From Patescibacteria group bacterium (GTDB lineage Bacteria; Patescibacteriota; Minisyncoccia; UBA6257; GWB1-50-10), in NCBI GenBank assembly GCA_030017555.1, contig JASEIC010000007.1:1-35750 (forward strand): a stretch of DNA of 35,750 nucleotides. Reading direction: 5' to 3'. The notes below the pieces were generated by a model. It worked only from the letters and a program-made list of their open reading frames with translations, was not told where the DNA came from and ran no database searches. Made by a program: the position numbers and the translations under genes. Position 1 is the stretch's first letter. Every line of letters begins with the position of its first letter. Below, in pieces: positions 4,528 to 24,350 of this stretch.

Positions 4528-5691
4528 TTAATGTTTCAAATTATCCAATTCAGAACCCATTATTTTTTGAATGGCGTCCATTGCAACCGCGTGAGAATTT
4601 AATCTATTGCCAATATCATAACTTCTTACAATGCCGACAAGAAATCCGCGCCAAAAAAGCGGCGAACCGGACCTGCCGGCGTAAACTTCCATTTCAGTAT
4701 CTAAAACAAGCGGCGTTTCGCGGAAAAATTTATCGCCAACAAAAAATCCCGTATATTTACCAACACTGCCGGTTAAATAAATTGTGGTCCAGACGCTTTT
4801 TGTGCCTTCAGTAACATCACCCGGAAAACCATAAGTGATAACTTCGTCATTTTTTTCCAGAATAGCGTTTGAAAGCATTTCAGCATAATCAAATGAAGCT
4901 GGCAGGGAAGTAACTCCAAAAATCGGGCCGGCTTCGCTCAATCCTGTTATTTTTAAAATTGCAAAATCAAGATTTTCAGCTTCAATGGCGCTTAAATTAG
5001 TTAAATTTGGTTCATATGCTAATTTGGCAACATAACCTAAAACTGAAACGCGCACAATCGGATTTATTTTTCTTATGAGATCTGGCGTGGGCAGAGTAGT
5101 TTCTTTTGGCACAATACCAACTTCGCAGTAATTTATATCATAAACATTTATTTCTTTTTCTTGATTATTGATTATGGCAATTTGTTTTGAGGATCTTCGT
5201 TCAATAACATGACGATTAGTTAAAATATGGCCGTTTTTAGTGATAATTACGCCAGAACCTCGGCTTAAAGCAATTGTGCCTTTTTCAATAACGCCTGTGT
5301 TGGCATCAACGTAGTTGTAATTAAAATAACAAACAAGGCCGACAATACTTGTCGGTGATATTTGCTTTGCCGGGAGAATTGGTTTTATTTGGGGTAGTGT
5401 CGAAGTTGGTTTAGGAACAGGCGTAATAATAGGTAGGTTTAATTTTGTTATATCGGGAATTTTTACAATTTGATCGGAACTAATGCCGGTGCTTGTTGAA
5501 AGGTCTGCTCGGCTCTCCTTTTTATAGTCAATACTTGGATTTATTGGAGTAGAAGAGGACTTTATTAAAATGTGGGGTGGGTAAGGATTAATAATCTCAG
5601 CGTGATTATTTTTTATCAAATTCGAGAAAATAGACGCGGAAATAGTTAAAATAGCAATAAATAATAAAACCAAAATTATAGAGCGAATCAT
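4528..5691 (-). CDS. Membrane-anchored trypsin-like serine protease
   Basis: The N-terminal hydrophobic helix (residues ~3-22) is followed by a Pro/Ser/Thr-rich linker to about residue 110, and then a chymotrypsin/trypsin-fold domain. The catalytic residues are visible: His in 'LTNRHVIE', Asp in 'LDFAILKI' and Ser in 'AGRSGSPLF'. No PDZ domain is seen, unlike DegP/HtrA, so it is better described as a trypsin-like protease anchored outside the membrane. The start is three bases from the fmt stop, so the two genes share a transcript. Its likely role is cell-envelope protein quality control or processing. Confidence 0.85.
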   Translation of the reverse strand: MIRSIILVLLFIAILTISASIFSNLIKNNHAEIINPYPPHILIKSSSTPINPSIDYKKESRADLSTSTGISSDQIVKIPDITKLNLPIITPVPKPTSTLPQIKPILPAKQISPTSIVGLVCYFNYNYVDANTGVIEKGTIALSRGSGVIITKNGHILTNRHVIERRSSKQIAIINNQEKEINVYDINYCEVGIVPKETTLPTPDLIRKINPIVRVSVLGYVAKLAYEPNLTNLSAIEAENLDFAILKITGLSEAGPIFGVTSLPASFDYAEMLSNAILEKNDEVITYGFPGDVTEGTKSVWTTIYLTGSVGKYTGFFVGDKFFRETPLVLDTEMEVYAGRSGSPLFWRGFLVGIVRSYDIGNRLNSHAVAMDAIQKIMGSELDNLKH

Positions 5692-5693
5692 AT

Positions 5694-6521
5694 TTAATTG
5701 ATTTTCAATATTTTTGGTTTTTCACCGGCAAACTGGATTTTTCTTAAAATTATCTTATTGTCGATAAAATCAGCTTCAAGAATTTTCATTCGTTTGCTTC
5801 CGTCAGCTGACGAATTTATGGTCCAGACGCCCGGTTCGGGATTTAATGCTTTTATTTTTTGCCAAATTGTTTTTGGGTCGTCTTTTTCAAGGTCAATAAA
5901 TGCGTCCTCGATTTTTATTTTTTTGGTAAATGTCGCTTCATTTTCGTTTTGAGGTTTTGGGACGGCATCCTCAATATCGGGTAAGGTTTTAATTAAAAGT
6001 TCAGCGCCAAGTAAGGCCAGTTTATCATGAAGTGTTTTGTAGTTATCGGTTTCTTCAATTTTTAAATTGGTCCTCGCGATAATCGAACCATGATCAATTT
6101 TTTCATCGAGAATAAAAAGGGTAACGCCGGTTTCTTTTTCGGCCCGAAGTATTGCTTCTTGGATTGGCGAGGGTCCTCGGTATTTTGGGAGAAGCGATGG
6201 ATGAATACCGATGACGCCCATTTTCGATAAATTCAGAATTTCGTTTGGTATAATTTTGGCATAAGCGGCAATTACCGCTAAATCTATTTCGCCAATTTCA
6301 TTTTTGAATTCGTTAATATCCAGCTTTTCCGGTTGGTAAACTTTGATGTTATGTTTTTTGGCAATAACTTTTGTAGGCGGAGGAGTAATGACTTTTTCTC
6401 TGCCGATTGGCCGATCAGGATTGCAAACTACAACACTGGGCTTTAAATCAGCTTTTATCAGTTCTTCCAAGATAATGGCGGCAAATTCCGGCGTGCCGAA
6501 GAATATATATTTAAAAAACAT
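5694..6521 (-). CDS. fmt: Methionyl-tRNA formyltransferase
   Basis: This enzyme formylates initiator Met-tRNA using 10-formyl-tetrahydrofolate. The N-terminus reads 'IFFGTPEFAAIILEEL' (Rossmann start). The catalytic region has 'IGIHPSLLPKYRGPSPIQ' and the following 'DHGSIIA'. The C-terminal tRNA-binding domain is shorter than usual: 275 residues in total, against about 310 in E. coli. The insertion 'NSSADGS' in the C-terminal domain is encoded by a palindrome (CGTCAGCTGACG, 5801-5812) that resembles two intergenic repeats in this window. Together with def, also nearby, this shows that formyl-methionine initiation is used. Confidence 0.92.
   Translation of the reverse strand: MFFKYIFFGTPEFAAIILEELIKADLKPSVVVCNPDRPIGREKVITPPPTKVIAKKHNIKVYQPEKLDINEFKNEIGEIDLAVIAAYAKIIPNEILNLSKMGVIGIHPSLLPKYRGPSPIQEAILRAEKETGVTLFILDEKIDHGSIIARTNLKIEETDNYKTLHDKLALLGAELLIKTLPDIEDAVPKPQNENEATFTKKIKIEDAFIDLEKDDPKTIWQKIKALNPEPGVWTINSSADGSKRMKILEADFIDNKIILRKIQFAGEKPKILKIN
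5800..5813. repeat. REP-like palindrome inside fmt
   Basis: CGTCAGCTGACG (5801-5812) is a perfect 12-bp palindrome. It matches the core of the intergenic palindromes at 9948-9963 and 32579-32594. Here it lies in frame in the fmt C-terminal region and encodes part of NSSADGS. Confidence 0.5.
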
Positions 6522-6541
6522 AGTTTTACTTGGTAATTGAT

Positions 6542-6570
6542 TTGTTTTTATTATAAGATAGACCTATATT
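6542..6570 (+). promoter_or_regulatory. Promoter of the def operon
   Basis: TTGTTT (6542-6547) and TATATT (6565-6570) are 17 bases apart. The likely start ATG at 6587 leaves a leader of roughly 10 bases. Confidence 0.45.
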
Positions 6571-6586
6571 GTATGCCATAACTTAT

Positions 6587-6862
6587 ATGAAACAAGCTTC
6601 AAGCGATGATTATATAAAAACCTTAAAAGAGAGAATGAGGATTTCAAAAATTTATTCAGCTCATCAAATGATTGGGCTTTCTATAGCTGAACTTTTGGAG
6701 GACGGGATGCACAAAGCGCTTTATATGAAATTGGCAAAAGAGTATAACAATGATTGGCTTATGAGATTGGCGAGAGACGTTGCTTCCCGCGCTAATATCC
6801 AAAACAAAGGCGCGTATTTTATGAAATTATTGCAAAATAAGAGAATGAACGAAAAAGATTAA
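6587..6862 (+). CDS. Small conserved helical protein upstream of def, function unknown
   Basis: This is a 91-residue, mostly alpha-helical, basic soluble protein ('MKQASSDDYIKTLKERMRISKIYSAHQMIGLSIAELL...'). I do not recognise a named domain. An in-frame TTG at 6569 would overlap the -10 box, so the ATG at 6587 is preferred. The stop is two bases before the def ATG, so it is the first gene of a tight operon with def, thpR, ctp and rplI. Confidence 0.6.
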   Translation: MKQASSDDYIKTLKERMRISKIYSAHQMIGLSIAELLEDGMHKALYMKLAKEYNNDWLMRLARDVASRANIQNKGAYFMKLLQNKRMNEKD

Positions 6863-6864
6863 TT

Positions 6865-7377
6865 ATGGACAATGGTATTTTTTTAATTGACGATGAAAAA
6901 AAGAAGAAGGTTTTACGGACTAAATTACCGTTGCTTGATTTGACGCGAGAGAATAAAAAAGAGTTGAGAGAATTAATAAAGAAAATGAGATTAATAATGA
7001 AAAAAACAAATGGTATCGGGCTTAGCGCCAACCAAATTGGCGTTCAAAAAAGAATATTCGTGGCACAAGTGCCTGACGATCAAGGACATATCAAATTTTA
7101 CGCGGTTATCAATCCGGAAATTACAAAAACTTCAAAAGAAAAATTGGCTCTCGAAGAAGGATGTTTAAGTATTCCCGAAACTTATGGGACGGTTCTGCGA
7201 GCTGAAAAAATCGTGCTTGAAGGATATGATTTGAACAGTAAAAAATTAAAAATCAAGGCTTGGGGACTTTTGGCTCGAGTTTTTCAGCACGAAGTCGATC
7301 ATTTAAACGGTATGGTTTTTATTGATCAATGCAAAGACGTGCGGAAAGTTCAAAAGAATATCGAAAATAAGGAATAA
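6865..7377 (+). CDS. def: Peptide deformylase
   Basis: This metal-dependent enzyme removes the formyl group from nascent proteins. All three motifs are present in order: GIGLSANQIG (motif 1, with S in place of the common A), EEGCLSIP (motif 2, metal-ligand cysteine) and QHEVDH (motif 3, HExxH-type ligands and catalytic Glu). Its length of 170 residues is normal. The C-terminus stops shortly after motif 3, as in short type 1 or 3 enzymes. It sits two bases downstream of a small helical protein and one base before thpR, in an operon with other translation and processing genes. Confidence 0.95.
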   Translation: MDNGIFLIDDEKKKKVLRTKLPLLDLTRENKKELRELIKKMRLIMKKTNGIGLSANQIGVQKRIFVAQVPDDQGHIKFYAVINPEITKTSKEKLALEEGCLSIPETYGTVLRAEKIVLEGYDLNSKKLKIKAWGLLARVFQHEVDHLNGMVFIDQCKDVRKVQKNIENKE

Positions 7378-7378
7378 A

Positions 7379-7939
7379 ATGGTCAGGCTTTTTATTGCAA
7401 TTCCTTTACCGCACGAAATTAAACTTCAGATTAATGAAATTGCAGAAAAACTCAAAAAAAGACTTCCTAATCTTGGGGGTGCGCGGTGGGTGGGAGAAGA
7501 AAATTGGCATCTCACCGTTACCTTTTTGGGATATCAACCCGAAAAGGAAGTGCCGGTTATAGAAAAATCAATCGAGGCGTTATCTAGAAATAGTTTTAGG
7601 GTTGATTTTGATCAAGTGATTTTTGGTCCACCCGGCACAACATCCAGAATGATTTGGCTTACCACAACAAAAGAATCATCAAAAATAATTGATTTACTTA
7701 AAAAAGACCTTGAAGAACAATTAATTAAAAACGGCGTGCGGTGGCAAAGAGAAACAAGGCCATATCTAGGCCATTTAACGTTGGTACGTTTTCATGAAAA
7801 GTCCAAAATTAATCCGGATAAAGTTATTGAAGAATCGCTGTTCGGCTTTAAGGCAGTTTCTTTAGATCTTATGCGTTCGGAACTTTCAAGAAGCGGTCCG
7901 GTTTATACTAAAATTTCCGGTATTGATTATAAAGGATAA
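7379..7939 (+). CDS. thpR: RNA 2',3'-cyclic phosphodiesterase (2H family)
   Basis: Two HxTx motifs mark the 2H phosphoesterase fold: 'WHLTVTFLG' near residue 40 and 'GHLTLVRFH' near residue 133. The N-terminus 'MVRLFIAIPLP' is typical of ThpR/LigT proteins. The family hydrolyses 2',3'-cyclic phosphates at RNA ends and can act on tRNA halves. The ATG at 7379 lies directly after the def stop and yields 186 residues, the family's usual size. Longer readings would run back into def. Confidence 0.9.
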   Translation: MVRLFIAIPLPHEIKLQINEIAEKLKKRLPNLGGARWVGEENWHLTVTFLGYQPEKEVPVIEKSIEALSRNSFRVDFDQVIFGPPGTTSRMIWLTTTKESSKIIDLLKKDLEEQLIKNGVRWQRETRPYLGHLTLVRFHEKSKINPDKVIEESLFGFKAVSLDLMRSELSRSGPVYTKISGIDYKG

Positions 7940-7973
7940 GTCTGGTTAAATGTTACTATTGTCGTTAATTTTT

Positions 7974-9179
7974 ATGGAATCGAAAAATAATAATAAAATA
8001 GCGCGGAAGATAGGAATTATTATCATTTTTGGAGCTTTGATATTTTATACCGGTTTTTATACCGGTTTTAATAAACGTCCGAAAATTGTCGTTCCTTCCG
8101 ACCAACAAGAATTGAACGCTAATATCCCGCTTCTTTGGGAAGCAGTAAGAGTAATAAAAGATAGTTATGTGGATATTAAAGACGTGAAAGACGAAGACCT
8201 TCTTTACGGAGCAATAAAAGGCATAACCGGCGCCCTTAAAGATCCTTATTCAGCGTTTTTCAATCCGAGCGATGCTAAAAAATTTGAGCAAGACATAAGC
8301 GGCAGTTTCGGCGGTATTGGCGCGGAAATTGGTATTCGCAATGGCCAGCTCGTCATTGTCGCTCCTTTAAAAGACAGTCCGGCCGAAAAAGCCGGCCTTC
8401 AGCCAAACGACAAAATTCTAAAAATTGATGAAACTATTACTATTGATCTTTCGGTTGAAGAAGCCGTAAAAATTATTCGCGGTGAGCCGGATACTGACGT
8501 GAAATTGCTTATTATGCGGGATACCTGGAAAGAAACAAAAGAAATTAAAATAACCCGTAAAATTATTACTATACCGACGCTTGATTGGGAAATGAAGGAA
8601 GGCAATATAATTTATATTCAACTTTACAATTTCAATTCTAATGCGCCTTCACTTTTTTATCAGGCGGCACTTGGCGGTTTATTGAAAGGCGGTAAAGCAG
8701 TAGTGCTTGATCTTCGTAATAATCCCGGCGGTTTTTTGGATGTGGCTGTAAATTTGGCCGGTTGGTTTTTGAAGCGCGGCGATCTTGTAGTTAGTGAGAG
8801 ATTTAGACTAGATGCAAAGCGCGAGCTTAGAGCAAATGGCAATGCCGCGCTTTTAAAAATACCGGCAGTGGTCATGATAAACGGCGGTTCAGCTTCGGCA
8901 TCAGAGATTTTAGCGGGCGCTTTAAGAGATGTTCGCGGCATCAAACTTATTGGTGAAAAGACGTTTGGCAAGGGAACTGTTCAGGAAATTGAAAGTTTAA
9001 GCGACGGTTCAACGTTAAAAATTTCCATTGCTGAATGGCTTACGCCTGCTGGTCATGAAATTAATAAAAAAGGACTTGATCCCGATATTGAAGTGAAAAT
9101 AACCGAAAAAGATATAGAGAAAAAACTTGATCCACAACTTGATAAAGCGCTTCAGATTATCAAACAAGAACTAAAATGA
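7974..9179 (+). CDS. ctp: Carboxy-terminal processing protease, S41 family
   Basis: The protein has an N-terminal membrane anchor (residues ~12-32), a PDZ domain ('[20 protein letters not shown]') and an S41 core. The core includes '[16 protein letters not shown]', the catalytic Ser in '[15 protein letters not shown]', and the catalytic Lys in '[11 protein letters not shown]'. This family cleaves C-terminal tails of envelope proteins by a Ser-Lys dyad. The start at 7974 (MESKNNNK) gives a short basic N-terminus before the helix; an ATG at 7950 is possible. The stop overlaps the rplI start as ATGA, so translation is coupled. Confidence 0.92.
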
Positions 9180-17155: not shown

Positions 17156-17368
17156 ATGGCAGAGTCAAATAAAAGTAATATAGGCAAAACTGTAAAAAAG
17201 TTGAGGGAGAAAATGGGCTTATCGCAAGAAAAACTAGCCCGCCTTGCCGATGTCTCAAATAATACGGTTGTTAATATTGAGGCGGGCAAACAAGACAATC
17301 CGACAATCGAAACCTTGAAAAAGGTCGCCAATGCTCTGCAGGTTGGGGTTGATAACCTTTTGAAATAA
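17156..17368 (+). CDS. XRE-family regulator 2 (controller-like)
   Basis: This 70-residue helix-turn-helix protein reads 'IGKTVKKLREKMGLSQEKLARLADVSNNTVVNIEAGKQDNPTIETLKKVANALQVGVDNLLK'-like in layout: the DNA-binding domain alone. It overlaps the methyltransferase start by one base (TAATG). Together with the strong 16-bp inverted repeat upstream, this is the classical arrangement of a controller protein that delays or balances a restriction-modification operon. Confidence 0.9.
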   Translation: MAESNKSNIGKTVKKLREKMGLSQEKLARLADVSNNTVVNIEAGKQDNPTIETLKKVANALQVGVDNLLK

Positions 17369-18966
17369 TGAGTACTATACAACAAACGAAAAACCTACTC
17401 ACAATTAAAGAAGCGAGCCAGTGGGCGAGTGATTTTCTAAAGCGCGACGTTAGCGAGTCAAACATCTCGTATTTGGTGCAATACGGGAAAGTAAAAAAGC
17501 ACAACGGCGGCAGTTCCATTTTTGTTGATTTGAGTGATCTAAAAAATTACTACGACTCGTATCGAGGTCAGCGAGAAGTTGATTGGAAAAAGAAGCTCGG
17601 CAATGACTTAAACTGGGCATTGTCTTTTGACCATCTTCGCGAAGTAGATACAACAAAACATGTCCATCGTTTACATCCCTACAAAGGCAAGTTTATTCCA
17701 CAACTCGTTCAATATTTTATTGACAATCATACGGACGATTTTAAGAAAAAAGTTTATTTTAAGGCCGGCGATATAATTCTTGATCCGTTTTCTGGCTCGG
17801 GCACGACACTTGTGCAAGCGCATGAAATGGGTATGCATACCATCGGCATTGATATATCTCATTTTAATTGCATGATTACGGAAACAAAATTGCTTTCCTA
17901 CGATCTTGCTTTGCTTGATGACGAAGTAAAAAAAATAAAGCAAACAATTATAAACTACGAGGCAGATAGCAAAATCAATGCTTTTGAAGATGAGCTATTG
18001 GCTCGCATGGCGGATTTCAATAATCAGTATTTCCCGAGTCCAGAGTTCAAATATAAAGTCCAAAGAGGGCAAATCAACGAGAGTAAATATGCCGTGGAAA
18101 AAGAAAAGGAATTTCTGAAAATCTATAATGCTCTTGTTAAAAGATATGACATAGAGCTAAATCATTCCGCAGGTAAAACTTTCTTAGATAAGTGGTATAT
18201 CAAAAATGTCCGCAAAGAAATTGACTTTGCATTTGAACAAGTTAAAAAAATCAAAGATGTCAAGAATAAAAAGATTTTAGCGATAATTTTGAGCCGAACA
18301 ATTAGGTCGTGCCGCGCAACGACACATTCGGATTTAGCTACCCTTAAAGAACCGCAGATAACAACTTATTATTGTTGGAAACACAAAAAGATTTGCAAGC
18401 CACTTTTCTCAATAAAGGAGCGGTTTGTTCGTTACGCGGTTGATACAGTATATCGGCTGAAAACATTTGCAAAACTAAAGACAAGCTCACATTATGCAGT
18501 TCTTCCAGTAGACTCCAGAACGGTGGATATTTTCAAAGAAGTGGAAAAAAGAAATAAAAAATTCCACGAGATTTTGAAGAAACAAAAAATCAATGGTATC
18601 TTTACTTCGCCGCCATATGTTGGCCAGATTGATTATCATGAACAACACGCCTATGCATATGATCTTTTCGGCTTTAAGCGCAGAGATGAGTTTGAAATAG
18701 GGCCTCTCTACAAAGGACAAGGAGCAGAAGCGCGCGCGTCTTATGTTGATGGTATTTCAAAGGTTTTGCTAAATTGTAAAAAGTTCTTGGCGGATAATTT
18801 TGATGTCTTTCTCGTTGCAAACGATAAATATAACTTGTATCCTGCAATCGCCGAGCAGACCGGAATGAAAATTATAAATCAGTTCAGGCGACCAGTATTG
18901 AACAGAACCGAGCGAGACAAGTCGCCCTATTCGGAGATTATATTTCATCTAAAGAACGGAAAATAA
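17368..18966 (+). CDS. DNA methyltransferase (TSPPY type) of a type II system
   Basis: The N-terminal ~65 residues form a MerR/excisionase-like DNA-binding segment ('LLTIKEASQWASDFLKRD...VDLSDLKNYYDS'). The SAM-binding motif 'DPFSGSGTT' is at ~139-147, followed by 'GIDIS'. The catalytic 'FTSPPYVGQIDYHEQHAYAYDLFGF' is near residue 412. TSPPY usually marks N4-cytosine methylation, and the cognate nuclease directly behind it looks like TdeIII (GGNCC specificity in the founding member), which is compatible. At 532 residues it carries a large target-recognition insert between the motifs. It overlaps XRE-2 and lies one base before the nuclease gene, within one operon. Confidence 0.85.
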   Translation: MSTIQQTKNLLTIKEASQWASDFLKRDVSESNISYLVQYGKVKKHNGGSSIFVDLSDLKNYYDSYRGQREVDWKKKLGNDLNWALSFDHLREVDTTKHVHRLHPYKGKFIPQLVQYFIDNHTDDFKKKVYFKAGDIILDPFSGSGTTLVQAHEMGMHTIGIDISHFNCMITETKLLSYDLALLDDEVKKIKQTIINYEADSKINAFEDELLARMADFNNQYFPSPEFKYKVQRGQINESKYAVEKEKEFLKIYNALVKRYDIELNHSAGKTFLDKWYIKNVRKEIDFAFEQVKKIKDVKNKKILAIILSRTIRSCRATTHSDLATLKEPQITTYYCWKHKKICKPLFSIKERFVRYAVDTVYRLKTFAKLKTSSHYAVLPVDSRTVDIFKEVEKRNKKFHEILKKQKINGIFTSPPYVGQIDYHEQHAYAYDLFGFKRRDEFEIGPLYKGQGAEARASYVDGISKVLLNCKKFLADNFDVFLVANDKYNLYPAIAEQTGMKIINQFRRPVLNRTERDKSPYSEIIFHLKNGK

Positions 18967-18967
18967 T

Positions 18968-19747
18968 ATGGCTTTATCAAAATCACAAAAAGAAAAAATC
19001 TCGGTGTTGCTGGAGAGAAAAATCGAAGATAAATTGCGACGCTATGCCCGCGAAACTTCCTCAATGCCTTTTTTGACGCGCCTGATTCAAGATAGCGAGA
19101 AGGTAGCGGCTTATTCTTTTATACACTCAATTGCCACTACATTAGGAATGTCTATTTACGAAGATGTTTCAAAAATTATTGCGGAAGAAAGTGCGGACGA
19201 ATGTTTTACTAAATACGATGTTGGCGGTGTTATTTCGCGCGAGCAAAAATCAGTAATTGATGATATTGTTAGAAAACTCCGCAATGGCGAAAAAGGAGTT
19301 CATAACGCGCAAGAAATTAAATTGGTGCTTGATGTTTCGGCAAAAGACGGGAAAGCACAAAAAGAAGGTAGGATTGCGGATTTCTATATGCGGCGCGGCG
19401 GCAAAGAGCATTACTTTGAAATTAAAACTGTTAAGCCAAATATAGACGTTTTTACAAAATCAAAAACAAAACTTCTTGAGTGGGTAGCGCGCCGCCGAAG
19501 CCCGATTAAAGTTTTTCTCGCTTTTCCATACAATCCCTATCATCCGCAACCATATGAGCGATTTACAGAGCAGGGCGTTTTGGATCGGGGAAAAGAATTC
19601 TTGATTGGCAAGGAATACTGGGATTTTCTCGGTGGTGAAAATACTTTTGAGGAATTACTGGAGCTTTTTGATAGTGTTGGAAAGAAGTTTAAGGAGAAAA
19701 TCAAAAATAAAATCCAAGAGGTAGCACGTAGCAAAATGTCTGGTTAA
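18968..19747 (+). CDS. Type II restriction endonuclease, TdeIII-like
   Basis: The 259-residue protein has a PD-(D/E)XK core: D in 'RIADFYMRRGG' (~137) and E-x-K in 'YFEIKTVKPN' (~150). A C-terminal block 'FPYNPYHPQPYERFTEQGVLDRGKEFLIGKEYWDFLGG' looks to me like the TdeIII family. That family cuts GGNCC; the specificity here is inferred only. It follows the methyltransferase by one base, so modification enzyme is translated first. The assignment as the restriction partner is strong from context even if the family name is wrong. Confidence 0.75.
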   Translation: MALSKSQKEKISVLLERKIEDKLRRYARETSSMPFLTRLIQDSEKVAAYSFIHSIATTLGMSIYEDVSKIIAEESADECFTKYDVGGVISREQKSVIDDIVRKLRNGEKGVHNAQEIKLVLDVSAKDGKAQKEGRIADFYMRRGGKEHYFEIKTVKPNIDVFTKSKTKLLEWVARRRSPIKVFLAFPYNPYHPQPYERFTEQGVLDRGKEFLIGKEYWDFLGGENTFEELLELFDSVGKKFKEKIKNKIQEVARSKMSG

Positions 19748-19789
19748 TTTGTCAAAAGGGGAAAATAATTTTAGAATAACTTAACTATA

Positions 19790-19963
19790 TGGAAAATTGG
19801 ACACTAACTTGGTGGATTGTTGGCTTAACTATCATTATGGTTGCTGGTCTAGTAATACAAATCATTTTGGATGCCGTGAAAGGAAAAAAAAACAACTTAA
19901 TTATGGCAGAAACTCAACGAGAAAAAAATTACAAAAAAGGCATTGGAGGTGCTGGAAAATAAT
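19790..19963 (+). CDS. Possible small membrane ORF (57 aa)
   Basis: The ATG at 19790 opens a frame with a hydrophobic helix 'WWIVGLTIIMVAGLVIQIIL' and a lysine-rich tail. Its last part overlaps the start of the next nuclease gene in another frame, including an ATG at 19903 (MAETQREK). It may be a genuine small membrane protein, or it may hold the displaced start of the nuclease gene (see there). Support is limited to the helix and the absence of another gene in this 200-base gap. Confidence 0.3.
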
Positions 19964-20641
19964 CCGGGTGGCGTTAGGTATTCTGATCTTTTCCGAAAAC
20001 TTGCCGAAGTTCTTCCTAACGTTCCCCCAAACACCATACACGGTACAATTTGGGATTTAGACAAGAAGAATGAACAAATAATAAAACCGGAAAAAGGATT
20101 ATTTATACTGAAAAAATACACTGATGTAATAATTGAGCGAAAGCCTGATGCGGGGAGTAATGTCCATTTACCCAGGGAAATTTCTTTTTATCAATCATTC
20201 GCTGATTATTTAGTACAAGATTTAGAGGAATGTACTAAAGCCATATCTTTGGGCGGAAATAAATTTGGTGATAGATGGGGAACACCCGACGTGTTCGGAG
20301 TATACAAATTTTCGGAGGCTGATGCCGTTCGTCCACCCGTTGAAATTATCAGCGCAGAAATTAAAACTGATGCAAACCAACTTATCACCGCATTTGGTCA
20401 AGTATGTGCTTATAAAATTTTTAGCCACAAAGTTTATCTAGCCGTTCCAAAAGAAGCCGATACCGGCAGAATTGAATCATTGTGCGCTCGCTTCGGAATT
20501 GGTCTTATACTTTTTAATAAAAATGACGCTCAAGATCCGAAATGGGAAATTCGCACGCGGGCAGTCAAAAACGAACCAGACTATTTTTACGTGAACGAGT
20601 ATTTGCAAAGATTGGGAGAAGATTGTAGATCATTATTTTAA
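19943..20641 (+). CDS. HARE-HTH-type winged helix fused to a PD-(D/E)XK nuclease domain
   Basis: The N-terminal ~70 residues ('NNPGGVRYSDLFRKLAEVLPNVPPNTIHGTIWDL') form a HARE-HTH/winged-helix domain. The rest looks like a nuclease: 'RWGTPDVFGVYK' supplies the acidic residue, and 'ISAEIKTDANQLITAFGQVCAYKIFSHKVYLAVP' supplies E-x-K and the helix. The start is unclear. TTG at 19943 is the first listed start, but coding-like sequence runs back to 19901. Adding one A to the A-run at 19922-19928 would join it to an ATG at 19903 (MAETQREKKITKKALEVLEN). A one-base deletion or slippage is therefore likely. It probably assists or supplements the TdeIII-like system. Confidence 0.65.
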   Translation: MEVLENNPGGVRYSDLFRKLAEVLPNVPPNTIHGTIWDLDKKNEQIIKPEKGLFILKKYTDVIIERKPDAGSNVHLPREISFYQSFADYLVQDLEECTKAISLGGNKFGDRWGTPDVFGVYKFSEADAVRPPVEIISAEIKTDANQLITAFGQVCAYKIFSHKVYLAVPKEADTGRIESLCARFGIGLILFNKNDAQDPKWEIRTRAVKNEPDYFYVNEYLQRLGEDCRSLF

Positions 20642-21177: not shown

Positions 21178-21384
21178 ATGCCAGACATACAGAAAAAATT
21201 TGGTGACAAATTGCGCGAGTTGCGCAAGCAAAAGGGTCTTTCTCAAGAAGACTTAGCTTTGAAGTCGGGTCTTCATCGAACTTATATAAGCGATATTGAA
21301 CGAGGATCGCGCAATCTTTCTCTCAAAAACATCGAGAAAATCGCTAAGGCGCTAGGATTGGCAACAAAGTCGCTTTTAGAATAA
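21178..21384 (+). CDS. XRE-family regulator 3 (controller-like)
   Basis: This 68-residue Cro/C1 helix-turn-helix protein reads 'FGDKLRELRKQKGLSQEDLALKSGLHRTYISDIERGSRNLS'. The 'HRTYISDIERG' recognition helix is very typical of restriction-modification controller proteins. It lies four bases upstream of the MamI-like endonuclease, so it probably controls the nuclease transcript. Confidence 0.92.
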   Translation: MPDIQKKFGDKLRELRKQKGLSQEDLALKSGLHRTYISDIERGSRNLSLKNIEKIAKALGLATKSLLE

Positions 21385-21388
21385 TCGT

Positions 21389-22393
21389 ATGCAACCAAAC
21401 AAGAAATTCGTTACCATAGGCGATAATCTCAAAAAGATTAACCAACTCCTCGCAGAATTGGTTCTTCAGCCAAGACTCAACGCCATTAAATGGTCTGCAA
21501 TAACAAAACAAACCCCAAATATAAAGATTGGATATCCGGGTCAGCATCTTGCTTCGCTTGTTGCGGGAATGGAAGGTGAACGAACGGGGGCGAGAGGAAA
21601 TGATCTTATTGATGGGTCTGAAGTAAAATCATGCTCAAGAATTGATGCGTTGGATAAGTGTTTAGATTGCGAAAGTCCTGTTGCAAGAATTGAAACAGTC
21701 TGCCCGAATTGCAGTTCCGGCAATATCCTACGGAGCAATGATTCAAAATGGCTTTTTGGGATTAGGAACGAAGCAGATTTGGACACTTTACTGCATGGAG
21801 TAAAAAGAATTCTACTAATTCTCGGGGATTATCCAAATTTTGATGAGGGTGATTTTAATACTTTACGCTTTCAAACTTTCGAAATTTGGCCGGAAAGTAA
21901 ACGTAATATTCGTTTTGGGGAAATAATGACTAATTACTATCGGAAAATTTATCTTGCACACAAGAAGAAAAATCAAGCGAAAACACCCGCGCCCAAAAAT
22001 TTCTGGCCATACCAGTACCAGTTTTATGTGTGTAATCCCATACCAACATTTGGATGTATTATCAAAAATGCAAATTCAAACCCAAGCATAAAAGTTTTTC
22101 ATTATGTGGAGCCAACTGTTGATCGTTCAACTTTACCGTCAATAGTTATGCCAGTTGATATCTTGAAAGATTTTGAGCTCGCTTTGATATTAAAAAACGC
22201 AAAGCCTGGTAAAATAGAACGAATGATAAAACCGGCCCTTCGAGGCAAGATAGGAAAAATCAAAAAGCTTTCAATCACTCAAAAACGAGAAATGTTGGTA
22301 GGAATTGATGAGGCGTTGCGTTCCTATTTACCCCTTCGAGACACTGATAGAATTTCAATTTCCAAGAAGAATTACACGAGACGAACACACTAA
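21389..22393 (+). CDS. Type II restriction endonuclease, MamI-like
   Basis: The 334-residue protein contains 'GYPGQHLASLVAGMEGERTGARGNDLIDGSEVKSC', which supplies an acidic metal site and the E-V-K of a nuclease core. A zinc ribbon (CLDC...CPNC, ~residues 91-110) and 'NDSKWLFGIRNE' follow. I associate this combination with the MamI family (founder specificity GATNNNNATC); this is from memory and needs checking. The gene follows XRE-3 and is convergent with the LexA-methyltransferase gene, their stop codons overlapping at 22390-22393. Nuclease and methylase are thus driven by separate promoters and regulators. Confidence 0.7.
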   Translation: MQPNKKFVTIGDNLKKINQLLAELVLQPRLNAIKWSAITKQTPNIKIGYPGQHLASLVAGMEGERTGARGNDLIDGSEVKSCSRIDALDKCLDCESPVARIETVCPNCSSGNILRSNDSKWLFGIRNEADLDTLLHGVKRILLILGDYPNFDEGDFNTLRFQTFEIWPESKRNIRFGEIMTNYYRKIYLAHKKKNQAKTPAPKNFWPYQYQFYVCNPIPTFGCIIKNANSNPSIKVFHYVEPTVDRSTLPSIVMPVDILKDFELALILKNAKPGKIERMIKPALRGKIGKIKKLSITQKREMLVGIDEALRSYLPLRDTDRISISKKNYTRRTH

Positions 22394-23952
22394 AAAAGTC
22401 TGGGTGTATTTTTCAGTTGTTTAATTCTTTCTTTAGATATATTGATATATTCCTCATCAATTTCTATCCCGATATAGTTTCTTTTCAGATTGATACAGGC
22501 GAGGGCTGTTGAACCCGCTCCCACAAATGGGTCAAGCACTGTCATTCCATCATTGCTACTTGCTTTGATAATACGCTCAATCAGTTTGAGTGGTTTTTGT
22601 GTTGAGTGATAGCGTTTTTCTCCATAGAAATCTATATCTTCCCAGACATCGGTAAAACCCATTTGTGGATTAAAAGTAAAATTAACCTCCGAGTAGGGTT
22701 TTTTAAATCCCAAAATCTTTTCTAGTTTTTCCCATTGCTCTTTAGTCGGTATTTGTGCCAAGATATTTTCTCCGGTGTACAAAGACCAAAGTCCGCCCCC
22801 ATTACTTTTTACCTCCATTGCGTCATTGATTTGTTTTGCTGTTAAACCCCTCTCTTTGTTTTTTTCTAATAAGAACTTTTTAATTTCAGGTTGGTGATAA
22901 TAATTGAAAAATAAAATACTTTCTGTAACGTTGGGAAACATCTTATAATTTTTTGTCGCTCGCCCGCTTATAGCTTTTATGCCTTTATTGATTATGATTT
23001 GCTGACGTAATGCAAAGTTTTCTCGCTCAATTTCTGGCAAAAGATAAGCAAGGGTTCTAAAATAACCGAATATATAAAAAGACCCCGTCTTTTTTACCAC
23101 TCGCGCAACTTCTTTTACCCACTGTTTCGTCCAATAAATATAGTCATTTTCTGTTCGCCACTGATAATCCCATTTTTCATTTATGACTTTCCAGTAAGGA
23201 GGATCGGCTATTACCAAGTCTATAGAATTGCTAGGTATTTTTTTTAATTCTTCGATAGCATCTCCGCAAATCAGCTTATTGAGGGGAAGTTTCTGATATT
23301 TCTGAACGGACTGTTTAATCTCATATTTTTCGAGAATTTGCGGTGATGCTATCTCGTCACGCACTACATCCACAACCACGCCCTGGATAGAAACTTCTCG
23401 CTCACCATTTTTTATGATTATTGACTCGTAGCTTTTATTTGCGGATTGTAATCGAATTTGTCCTCGCTCTTTGAAAAAAGTTTTGAGAGTCGCGTCGTGA
23501 TTATCAATGAGGGCAACAACTTTTTCCCCGTTTTCAGCGATACTTTGTTGGCGGACTAAAACCACATCTCCATCGTTGATATTTTCATCAATCATACTTT
23601 GCCCAAGAACTTTTAAAGCAAAGTATTCTTGTCCGGACTGAATTTTAGTTTTTGGAACAGCGATGCTTTCTGTTGAATTTGATATTGCCTCAATGGGCTG
23701 TCCGGCAGCAATCGTTCCCAACAAAGGAATTTTTACCAGTGGTTCACTTTCGCTCACACTTATTGCGCGCGGCCGATTTTCTTCTTTGTATAAATAACCT
23801 TTTTCTTGGAGTGACTTTAGGTGGTGATGAGCAGTGGAGAGAGAGGACAGATGAAAATGTCGCCCGATCTCTTTTAGAGAAGGGCTAAAACCTTTCTTTT
23901 TTTGATAGGACTGCACAAAATCCAGTATTTCTTTTTGGCGTTTGGTTAGCAT
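22390..23952 (-). CDS. LexA repressor-DNA methyltransferase fusion
   Basis: Residues 1-200 read as a complete LexA. They have the winged helix 'PSLKEIGRHFHLSSLSTAHHHLKSLQEKGYL', the self-cleavage site A83-G84 (IAAGQPI), catalytic S119 (LGQSM) and K157 (ATLKTF), and the terminal strand 'GVVVDVVRDE'. These positions almost equal E. coli LexA (84/85, 119, 156). After a ~22-residue linker, residues ~223-520 form a beta-class DNA methyltransferase: 'LICGDAIEELKKIPSNSIDL', DPPY at 250-253, 'KRYHSTQKPLKLIERI' and 'VLDPFVGAGSTALACINL'. DPPY suggests adenine-N6 methylation, suitable for a MamI-like partner. The frame is unbroken. DNA damage could cleave the protein between the operator-binding part and the methylase; this is inference. 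Confidence 0.9.
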   Translation of the reverse strand: MLTKRQKEILDFVQSYQKKKGFSPSLKEIGRHFHLSSLSTAHHHLKSLQEKGYLYKEENRPRAISVSESEPLVKIPLLGTIAAGQPIEAISNSTESIAVPKTKIQSGQEYFALKVLGQSMIDENINDGDVVLVRQQSIAENGEKVVALIDNHDATLKTFFKERGQIRLQSANKSYESIIIKNGEREVSIQGVVVDVVRDEIASPQILEKYEIKQSVQKYQKLPLNKLICGDAIEELKKIPSNSIDLVIADPPYWKVINEKWDYQWRTENDYIYWTKQWVKEVARVVKKTGSFYIFGYFRTLAYLLPEIERENFALRQQIIINKGIKAISGRATKNYKMFPNVTESILFFNYYHQPEIKKFLLEKNKERGLTAKQINDAMEVKSNGGGLWSLYTGENILAQIPTKEQWEKLEKILGFKKPYSEVNFTFNPQMGFTDVWEDIDFYGEKRYHSTQKPLKLIERIIKASSNDGMTVLDPFVGAGSTALACINLKRNYIGIEIDEEYINISKERIKQLKNTPRLF

Positions 23953-23960
23953 ATTGACTT

Positions 23961-24005
23961 GTATATTGGTAGGTGTATACTATAAGTGTATCGAAACTGT
24001 TTCGA
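23961..24005. promoter_or_regulatory. Divergent control region with palindromic operators (candidate LexA sites)
   Basis: The gap between the LexA-methyltransferase gene and the GIY-YIG gene holds TCGAAAC-T-GTTTCGA (23991-24005), a perfect palindrome with 7-bp arms. It also holds GTATA/TATAC (23961-23965 and 23976-23980) spaced by ten bases. Either could be the operator of the LexA domain. TATAGT-type -10 candidates lie between them on the minus strand. Confidence 0.5.
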
Positions 24006-24053
24006 AGCGTCAATACATCAAGTTATCCCCATTATTAAATAACAAAAGCAAAT

Positions 24054-24350
24054 ATGACAAAATTCAGCCGTTCGCAAAAGTTTACAAAGGAAAATATTGC
24101 CAAAGTTCCCCAAGATAAGGCCATTGTCTACAAAATTAAGAGCAGAGAGGACGAAAATCTATACACGGGTATCGCTGGCCGCGGTCGATCGCAGGAGCGA
24201 TTGGTTGAGCATAAGGATATAAAAAAGGAGAAAATTCCCGAGGGTACACGTTTCCAATATGCCCAAGTAAAAACCAAAGATCGTGCTCATCAAATTGAAA
24301 AAGCAATTATCAAAAAGGAACAGCCCGAACATAACGAACAACATAAATAA
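24054..24350 (+). CDS. Small GIY-YIG-domain protein
   Basis: The 98-residue protein carries a compact GIY-YIG nuclease pattern: 'AIVYKIKSREDENLYTGIAGRG' (the two strands), Arg in 'GRSQERLVEH', and 'HQIEKAIIKKEQPEHN' with the metal-binding glutamate and following Asn. It is little more than the catalytic domain. It is transcribed away from the LexA-methyltransferase gene from the shared control region, so it may answer to the same repressor. Its stop lies three bases before the peptidase ATG. Confidence 0.7.
   Translation: MTKFSRSQKFTKENIAKVPQDKAIVYKIKSREDENLYTGIAGRGRSQERLVEHKDIKKEKIPEGTRFQYAQVKTKDRAHQIEKAIIKKEQPEHNEQHK

Follow-up and report, generated by a model that had tools for sequence, protein, structure and literature searches.

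Organization of the Locus

The window (the whole stretch of DNA that was analysed, 35,750 nucleotides) carries a gene in which a LexA repressor and a DNA methyltransferase (MTase) are encoded in a single frame, and an endonuclease gene faces it. The features of the window, and the parts of the fusion protein, are as follows.

17368-18966: MTase-like gene of the second restriction system of the window
18968-19747: TdeIII-type endonuclease gene of the second system (PF09520, 4.7e-59)
19943-20641: ORF with PD-(D/E)XK-like residues, second system
21178-21384, forward strand: Cro/C1-type HTH gene, 68 aa (PF01381, 3.3e-20), candidate controller (C) protein of the nuclease
21389-22393, forward strand: MamI-type restriction endonuclease gene, 334 aa (PF09567 RE_MamI, 6.1e-37)
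22390-23952, reverse strand: LexA-methyltransferase fusion gene, single 520-aa frame with no internal stops
Fusion residues 1-63: winged HTH of the LexA part
Fusion residues 72-197: S24 peptidase with A83-G84, S119 and K157
Fusion residues about 200-222: linker between the S24 and MTase parts
Fusion residues 222-514: beta-class DNA MTase, DPPY at 250-253, DPFVGAGS from 474
23985-23990, reverse strand: -10-like TACACT, read from the sequence
23991-24006, reverse strand: predicted operator, direct repeat TTCGA-N6-TTCGA with an 11-bp period, in the spacer of the fusion promoter
24008-24013, reverse strand: -35-like TTGACG, read from the sequence
24022-24031, reverse strand: DnaA-box-like element TGGGGATAAC, upstream of the operator
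24054-24350, forward strand: GIY-YIG-like gene, 98 aa (PF01541, 1.2e-4)

The fusion gene and the MamI gene are convergent (tail-to-tail) and overlap by 4 bp. The small HTH gene is located directly upstream of the nuclease gene (R), and an HTH gene lies behind R in about 32 relatives. Since the HTH gene is followed by MamI, convergent with the fusion, the locus can be described as C-R facing LexA-M. The GIY-YIG-like gene is divergent from the fusion, so that its promoter region adjoins the LexA operator; a gene of this family has the same position at nine loci (the window and eight others), and its membership in the restriction-modification (RM) system is uncertain.

The second restriction system of the window occupies positions 17368-20641. 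In other genomes, TdeIII M-R pairs were found behind a separate lexA (L193, L360 and L361).

The Fusion Protein

The earlier note, made from the sequence of the window, described an N-terminal part with the landmarks of an active LexA that continues in frame into a beta-class MTase, and it proposed a search for the corresponding domains. All three were matched by Pfam in the expected order: LexA_DNA_bind (PF01726) at residues 2-63 (1.9e-19), Peptidase_S24 (PF00717) at residues 76-194 (3e-30) and N6_N4_Mtase at residues 244-508 (2.3e-43). The LexA part is similar to solved LexA structures (3.6e-39), and in the alignments with them S119 and K157 occupy the positions of the E. coli LexA catalytic dyad (Ser and Lys), whose cleavage site lines up with A83-G84. 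The MTase part is similar to solved beta-class MTases, such as CcrM, RsrI and MboIIA. Both the LexA landmarks (HTH, A83-G84, S119 and K157) and the MTase following them without an internal stop are thus confirmed. The AlphaFold model of the fusion (mean pLDDT 66, pTM 0.49) served only as a basis for the domain borders and the linker; in this model, residues 200-214 form a low-confidence linker between the S24 part and the MTase part.

The source genome is a draft of 674 kb in 39 contigs, which would leave room for an assembly or frameshift artefact. The probability of such an origin is negligible, and it was rejected: 138 unique fusions come from many assemblies, and full-length orthologues are present in four other genomes (L196, 80% identical; L197, 79%; L198, 74%; L199, 58%). 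These four are from different assemblies, and the LexA-MTase junction is readable without a stop in all of them; the missed stop or frameshift at residues 200-225, which the earlier note had considered, is therefore not borne out. The MamI endonuclease adjoins the amino-MTase there as in the window. In a comparison of the orthologues, synonymous change was saturated and dN low for either half of the fusion.

A second LexA-MTase fusion is encoded in the source genome (G000:C34), which also speaks against an assembly error; its LexA part is 64% identical to that of the first, and its MTase is different. RecA is also encoded.

Distribution and Modular Partners

The fusion was detected in about 14 other genomes among 59 relatives. 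For the class, 384 genomes were covered: 117 matches of the LexA clade were listed, and about 87 of these, from about 69 genomes, belong to frames of 440 aa or more; phylum-wide, about 19 of 380 genomes contain the fusion. A scan of genome contigs revealed 563 relatives. The best 80 of them are almost all from Patescibacteria; a few sequences are on short contigs assigned to other phyla, possibly through errors in binning. The search for the same architecture suggested in the earlier note thus found it to be common in Patescibacteria, with the MamI neighbour kept at the four orthologous loci.

After the removal of identical sequences, the fusion set contained 138 unique sequences. S119 and K157 are conserved in 138/138 of them, and A83-G84 is conserved in all aligned rows except one that was split by the aligner. 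The pairing of a self-cleaving LexA-type repressor with the protective methylase of an RM system, put forward in the earlier note, gains support from the sequence and recurs throughout this set.

The MTases joined to LexA comprise m6A, m4C, gamma and C5 types. Among the 138 fusions, the DPPY motif was found in about 62, SPPY in 50, DPPF in 3 and NPPY in 3; the remaining motifs are variants (12) and C5 (8). A tree of the LexA part shows about 51 changes of MTase motif class and about 10 switches between the fused and unfused states. A convergent neighbour gene is present at 115 of the 138 fusions, usually overlapping by 4 or 9 bp. At least ten endonuclease families adjoin fusions; the partners include MamI, TaqI, Bsp6I, MvaI/BcnI, BglII, HindIII, BsaWI, AlwI, MutH-like, EndoVII/His-Me and HNH.

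Related unfused LexAs precede separate MTase and nuclease genes. L192, with lexA, a MamI-type M and a MamI R, is a split form of the window system, and L193 has lexA, M and a TdeIII R. An unfused MamI M-R pair was also found in L356, and the phage record MT836270 contains a MamI-type M-R pair without LexA, so a system of this kind can do without LexA. An origin from phages or plasmids was considered and rejected: the MTase part occurs in plasmid and phage records, and among the matches listed in either collection none reaches 80% coverage of the fusion. The fusion query is matched over its full length by one viral contig (L276).

Two further observations concern the partners. A candidate new restriction endonuclease family (330-347 aa, motif LSPDSDGxLCGL; L004 5311-6354, L047, L049, L238 and others) stands convergent with the fusion at 15 loci, and an accepted Pfam match is absent in the three members searched. 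In L204, positions 5001-8390 encode a 1129-aa protein consisting of LexA, a DPPY methylase and a second stretch with NPPW; it resembles a Type IIG enzyme.

Predicted Operator and Its Covariation with the HTH

The TTCGA repeat in the fusion promoter has one exact match in the whole window and is conserved in the L196-L199 orthologues. In general, the fusions are preceded by a TTCxy-N6-TTCxy direct repeat (period 11 bp) that in most cases occupies the spacer separating the -35 from the -10 element. All 20 loci of the initial set have it, as a rule 20-60 bp upstream. With a permissive cut-off it was detected in 129/136 fusions, and shuffled controls then gave 31-48/154; because of this laxity, the operator argument rests on two stricter tests, covariation and a position weight matrix (PWM). 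A 15-bp palindrome, TCGAAACAGTTTCGA, was rejected as the operator of the window, as the relatives have the direct repeat and not this palindrome.

When residue 43 of the recognition helix is F, Y or H, the fifth base is A in both half-sites (89/89); with E, Q or D it is never A (45/45), and K occurs with C (2/2). The association is significant (Fisher, about 1e-36), and the S24-domain tree shows 23 changes of the label. Among sequences of the F/Y/H group, A at residue 36 is accompanied by T as the fourth base of both half-sites (61/62), and S by G in at least one half-site (20/25). The HTH and the operator are adjacent on the DNA, so joint inheritance contributes to this covariation; it shows the HTHs and their predicted operators to be matched pairs, with the number of independent changes being uncertain. 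The unfused LexAs L357-L361 and L190-L193 have the recognition helix PTVHQH or PTIHQH, and the promoters of several of them contain a TTTAGG-type direct repeat instead of TTTCxx.

A PWM score of at least 13 was reached by 91/101 own promoters of the fusions versus 0/101 R/C promoters. The matrix was trained on 21 sites from the loci first examined, most of which were scored again later, so the own-promoter value is partly circular; the zero for R/C is not. The operator of the window itself scores weaker (10.7 bits). Control of the nuclease promoter by LexA was rejected, given that no strong operator was found in any of the 101 R/C promoters. Read from the promoter sequences, these data indicate that the fusion would repress its own gene, with the nuclease gene exempt. 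Another candidate, methylation of its own promoter by M, was also rejected: the promoter does not contain GATNNNNATC, which we take to be the MamI site, and the count of such sites equals the chance expectation.

It is very unlikely that the fusion is the general SOS repressor of the cell with a methylase attached. Such a role would agree with the fact that no other full LexA was found in the source genome, where the third S24 match is a 188-aa frame with part of the domain. In a genome pattern search, however, the perfect matches were the promoter of the second fusion and a site between rplO- and secY-like genes; none of the 30 best-ranked genome matches to one consensus clearly marks a repair gene, and a strong operator was not found at the RecA locus. 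In addition, the fusion and a separate LexA occur together in about eight of the approximately 19 fusion-containing genomes of the phylum.

A DnaA-Box-Like Element

The element TGGGGATAAC upstream of the operator is the only match in the window. The consensus of the relatives, TGTGGATAAC, contains the DnaA-box sequence and was found (at least 9 of 10 bases, at most 160 bp upstream) before 114 of 153 genes of the relatives versus 39 of 759 control genes. Its spacing is nearly fixed: it usually precedes the operator by 10-16 bp or by 1 bp. The same element also precedes unfused lexA-M-R operons. It may add a coupling to replication.

Proposed Mechanism

We consider it likely that the fusion is a self-cleaving methylase autorepressor and that DNA breaks raise M, not R. 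The LexA part would bind the direct repeat in the fusion promoter and hold methylase synthesis low. Chromosome breaks, above all those made by the partner nuclease at under-methylated sites, which M and R would both recognize, would lead to RecA filaments, and these would stimulate self-cleavage of the fusion at A83-G84. The HTH would thereby be separated from the peptidase-methylase part, the promoter would open and more of the predicted methylase would be made. The nuclease gene, lacking a LexA operator, is probably controlled by its own HTH (C) protein, so that damage would increase protection rather than attack. Imbalance or loss of Type II RM systems, and the killing that they cause, are reported to induce SOS (PMC3874152).

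Alternatively, the LexA part may be only a DNA-binding and dimerising module; the fusion would then repress its own gene as M.SsoII or M.EcoRII do, and damage would not lead to cleavage. Autorepression is known for MTases that carry an N-terminal HTH (PMC3874152, PMC12707154), and the predicted operator is indeed located at the fusion's own promoter. A bare HTH would suffice for this, yet the S24 domain is kept with its active site, and the A-G site, Ser and Lys are intact in the fusions despite their wide divergence. The intact dyad in 138/138 fusions argues for cleavage in use, and we regard a purely structural role of the LexA part as unlikely.

Another explanation is that cleavage mainly switches the methylase itself, its activity or location changing upon release from the operator or from LexA-type dimers, with transcription being secondary. 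The low-confidence linker at residues 200-214 of the AlphaFold model, which parts S24 from the MTase, would fit this. A LexA cleavage product keeps the S24 dimerisation domain, and that domain would likewise stay on the cleaved fusion. The clear signal, however, is the matched operator in the fusion's own promoter, and in the unfused lexA-M-R operons transcription is the only possible link; this explanation thus appears rather doubtful. The earlier note proposed that methylation, or the synthesis and location of the methylase, would be tied to DNA damage. Of this, methylase synthesis is favoured by the own-promoter operator: since the target is that promoter and not the promoter of the nuclease, the likely output would be more methylase after damage and not mainly relocation.

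Returning to the autorepressor whose cleavage raises methylase synthesis, we lean towards a broader class of DNA-damage-gated RM systems, in which LexA would be an interchangeable front-end, fused to or in an operon with almost any methylase, and self-inflicted breaks would raise the antidote. It has long been asked how an RM system keeps from killing its host while methylation lags; a methylase with a built-in sensor of broken DNA would answer this directly.

Comparison with Known Systems

M.SsoII and M.EcoRII are C5-cytosine MTases. Enzymes of the M.SsoII type have a short HTH and no protease, whereas the fusion combines an N6_N4 MTase with a complete LexA, including an S24 peptidase of the self-cleaving type, as its DNA-binding part. 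Its relatives include m6A, m4C, gamma and C5 MTases, and only some of them have LexA joined to a C5 MTase. The likeness to the regulatory HTH-MTases M.SsoII, M.EcoRII and M.Ecl18kI (PMC3874152, PMC6100179, PMC12707154) consists in an N-terminal DNA-binding domain on the methylase and an operator, predicted here, that overlaps the methylase's own promoter.

With LexA, the fusion shares the HTH, the S24 domain, the Ala-Gly site and the Ser-Lys dyad; it differs in the C-terminal DNA methylase and in the predicted operator, which was found at its own gene and at none of the repair genes examined. The LexA operator of alphaproteobacteria is a direct repeat with an 11-bp period, like the one predicted for the fusion. 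A study of SOS in Patescibacteria is cited among direct-repeat LexA motifs (PMC7739468). No description of LexA-MTase fusions was found, although an earlier mention in work on the Patescibacteria SOS network is possible; the literature searched contained no papers joining restriction-modification, Patescibacteria and LexA, and a 2025 review of RM biology nowhere mentions LexA.

Like Type II RM systems under C-protein control, the locus has a small gene for a Cro/C1-type HTH protein immediately upstream of R; in the window, a further controller (LexA), distinct from the first and encoded on the other strand, would act on M. Type I systems show damage-induced restriction alleviation, in which HsdR is proteolysed by ClpXP (PMC12707154, PMC11109961). 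There too, the balance moves away from restriction and towards protection after damage; for the fusion, the route would be derepression of methylase synthesis. The fusion is a combination of two known kinds, LexA and the regulatory HTH-MTase, in a form for which we found no description. LexA would here serve a dedicated purpose separate from the general SOS regulon, and would do so widely within a large group of uncultured bacteria; in place of the plain HTH, it would make the autorepression known from regulatory HTH-MTases sensitive to DNA breaks.
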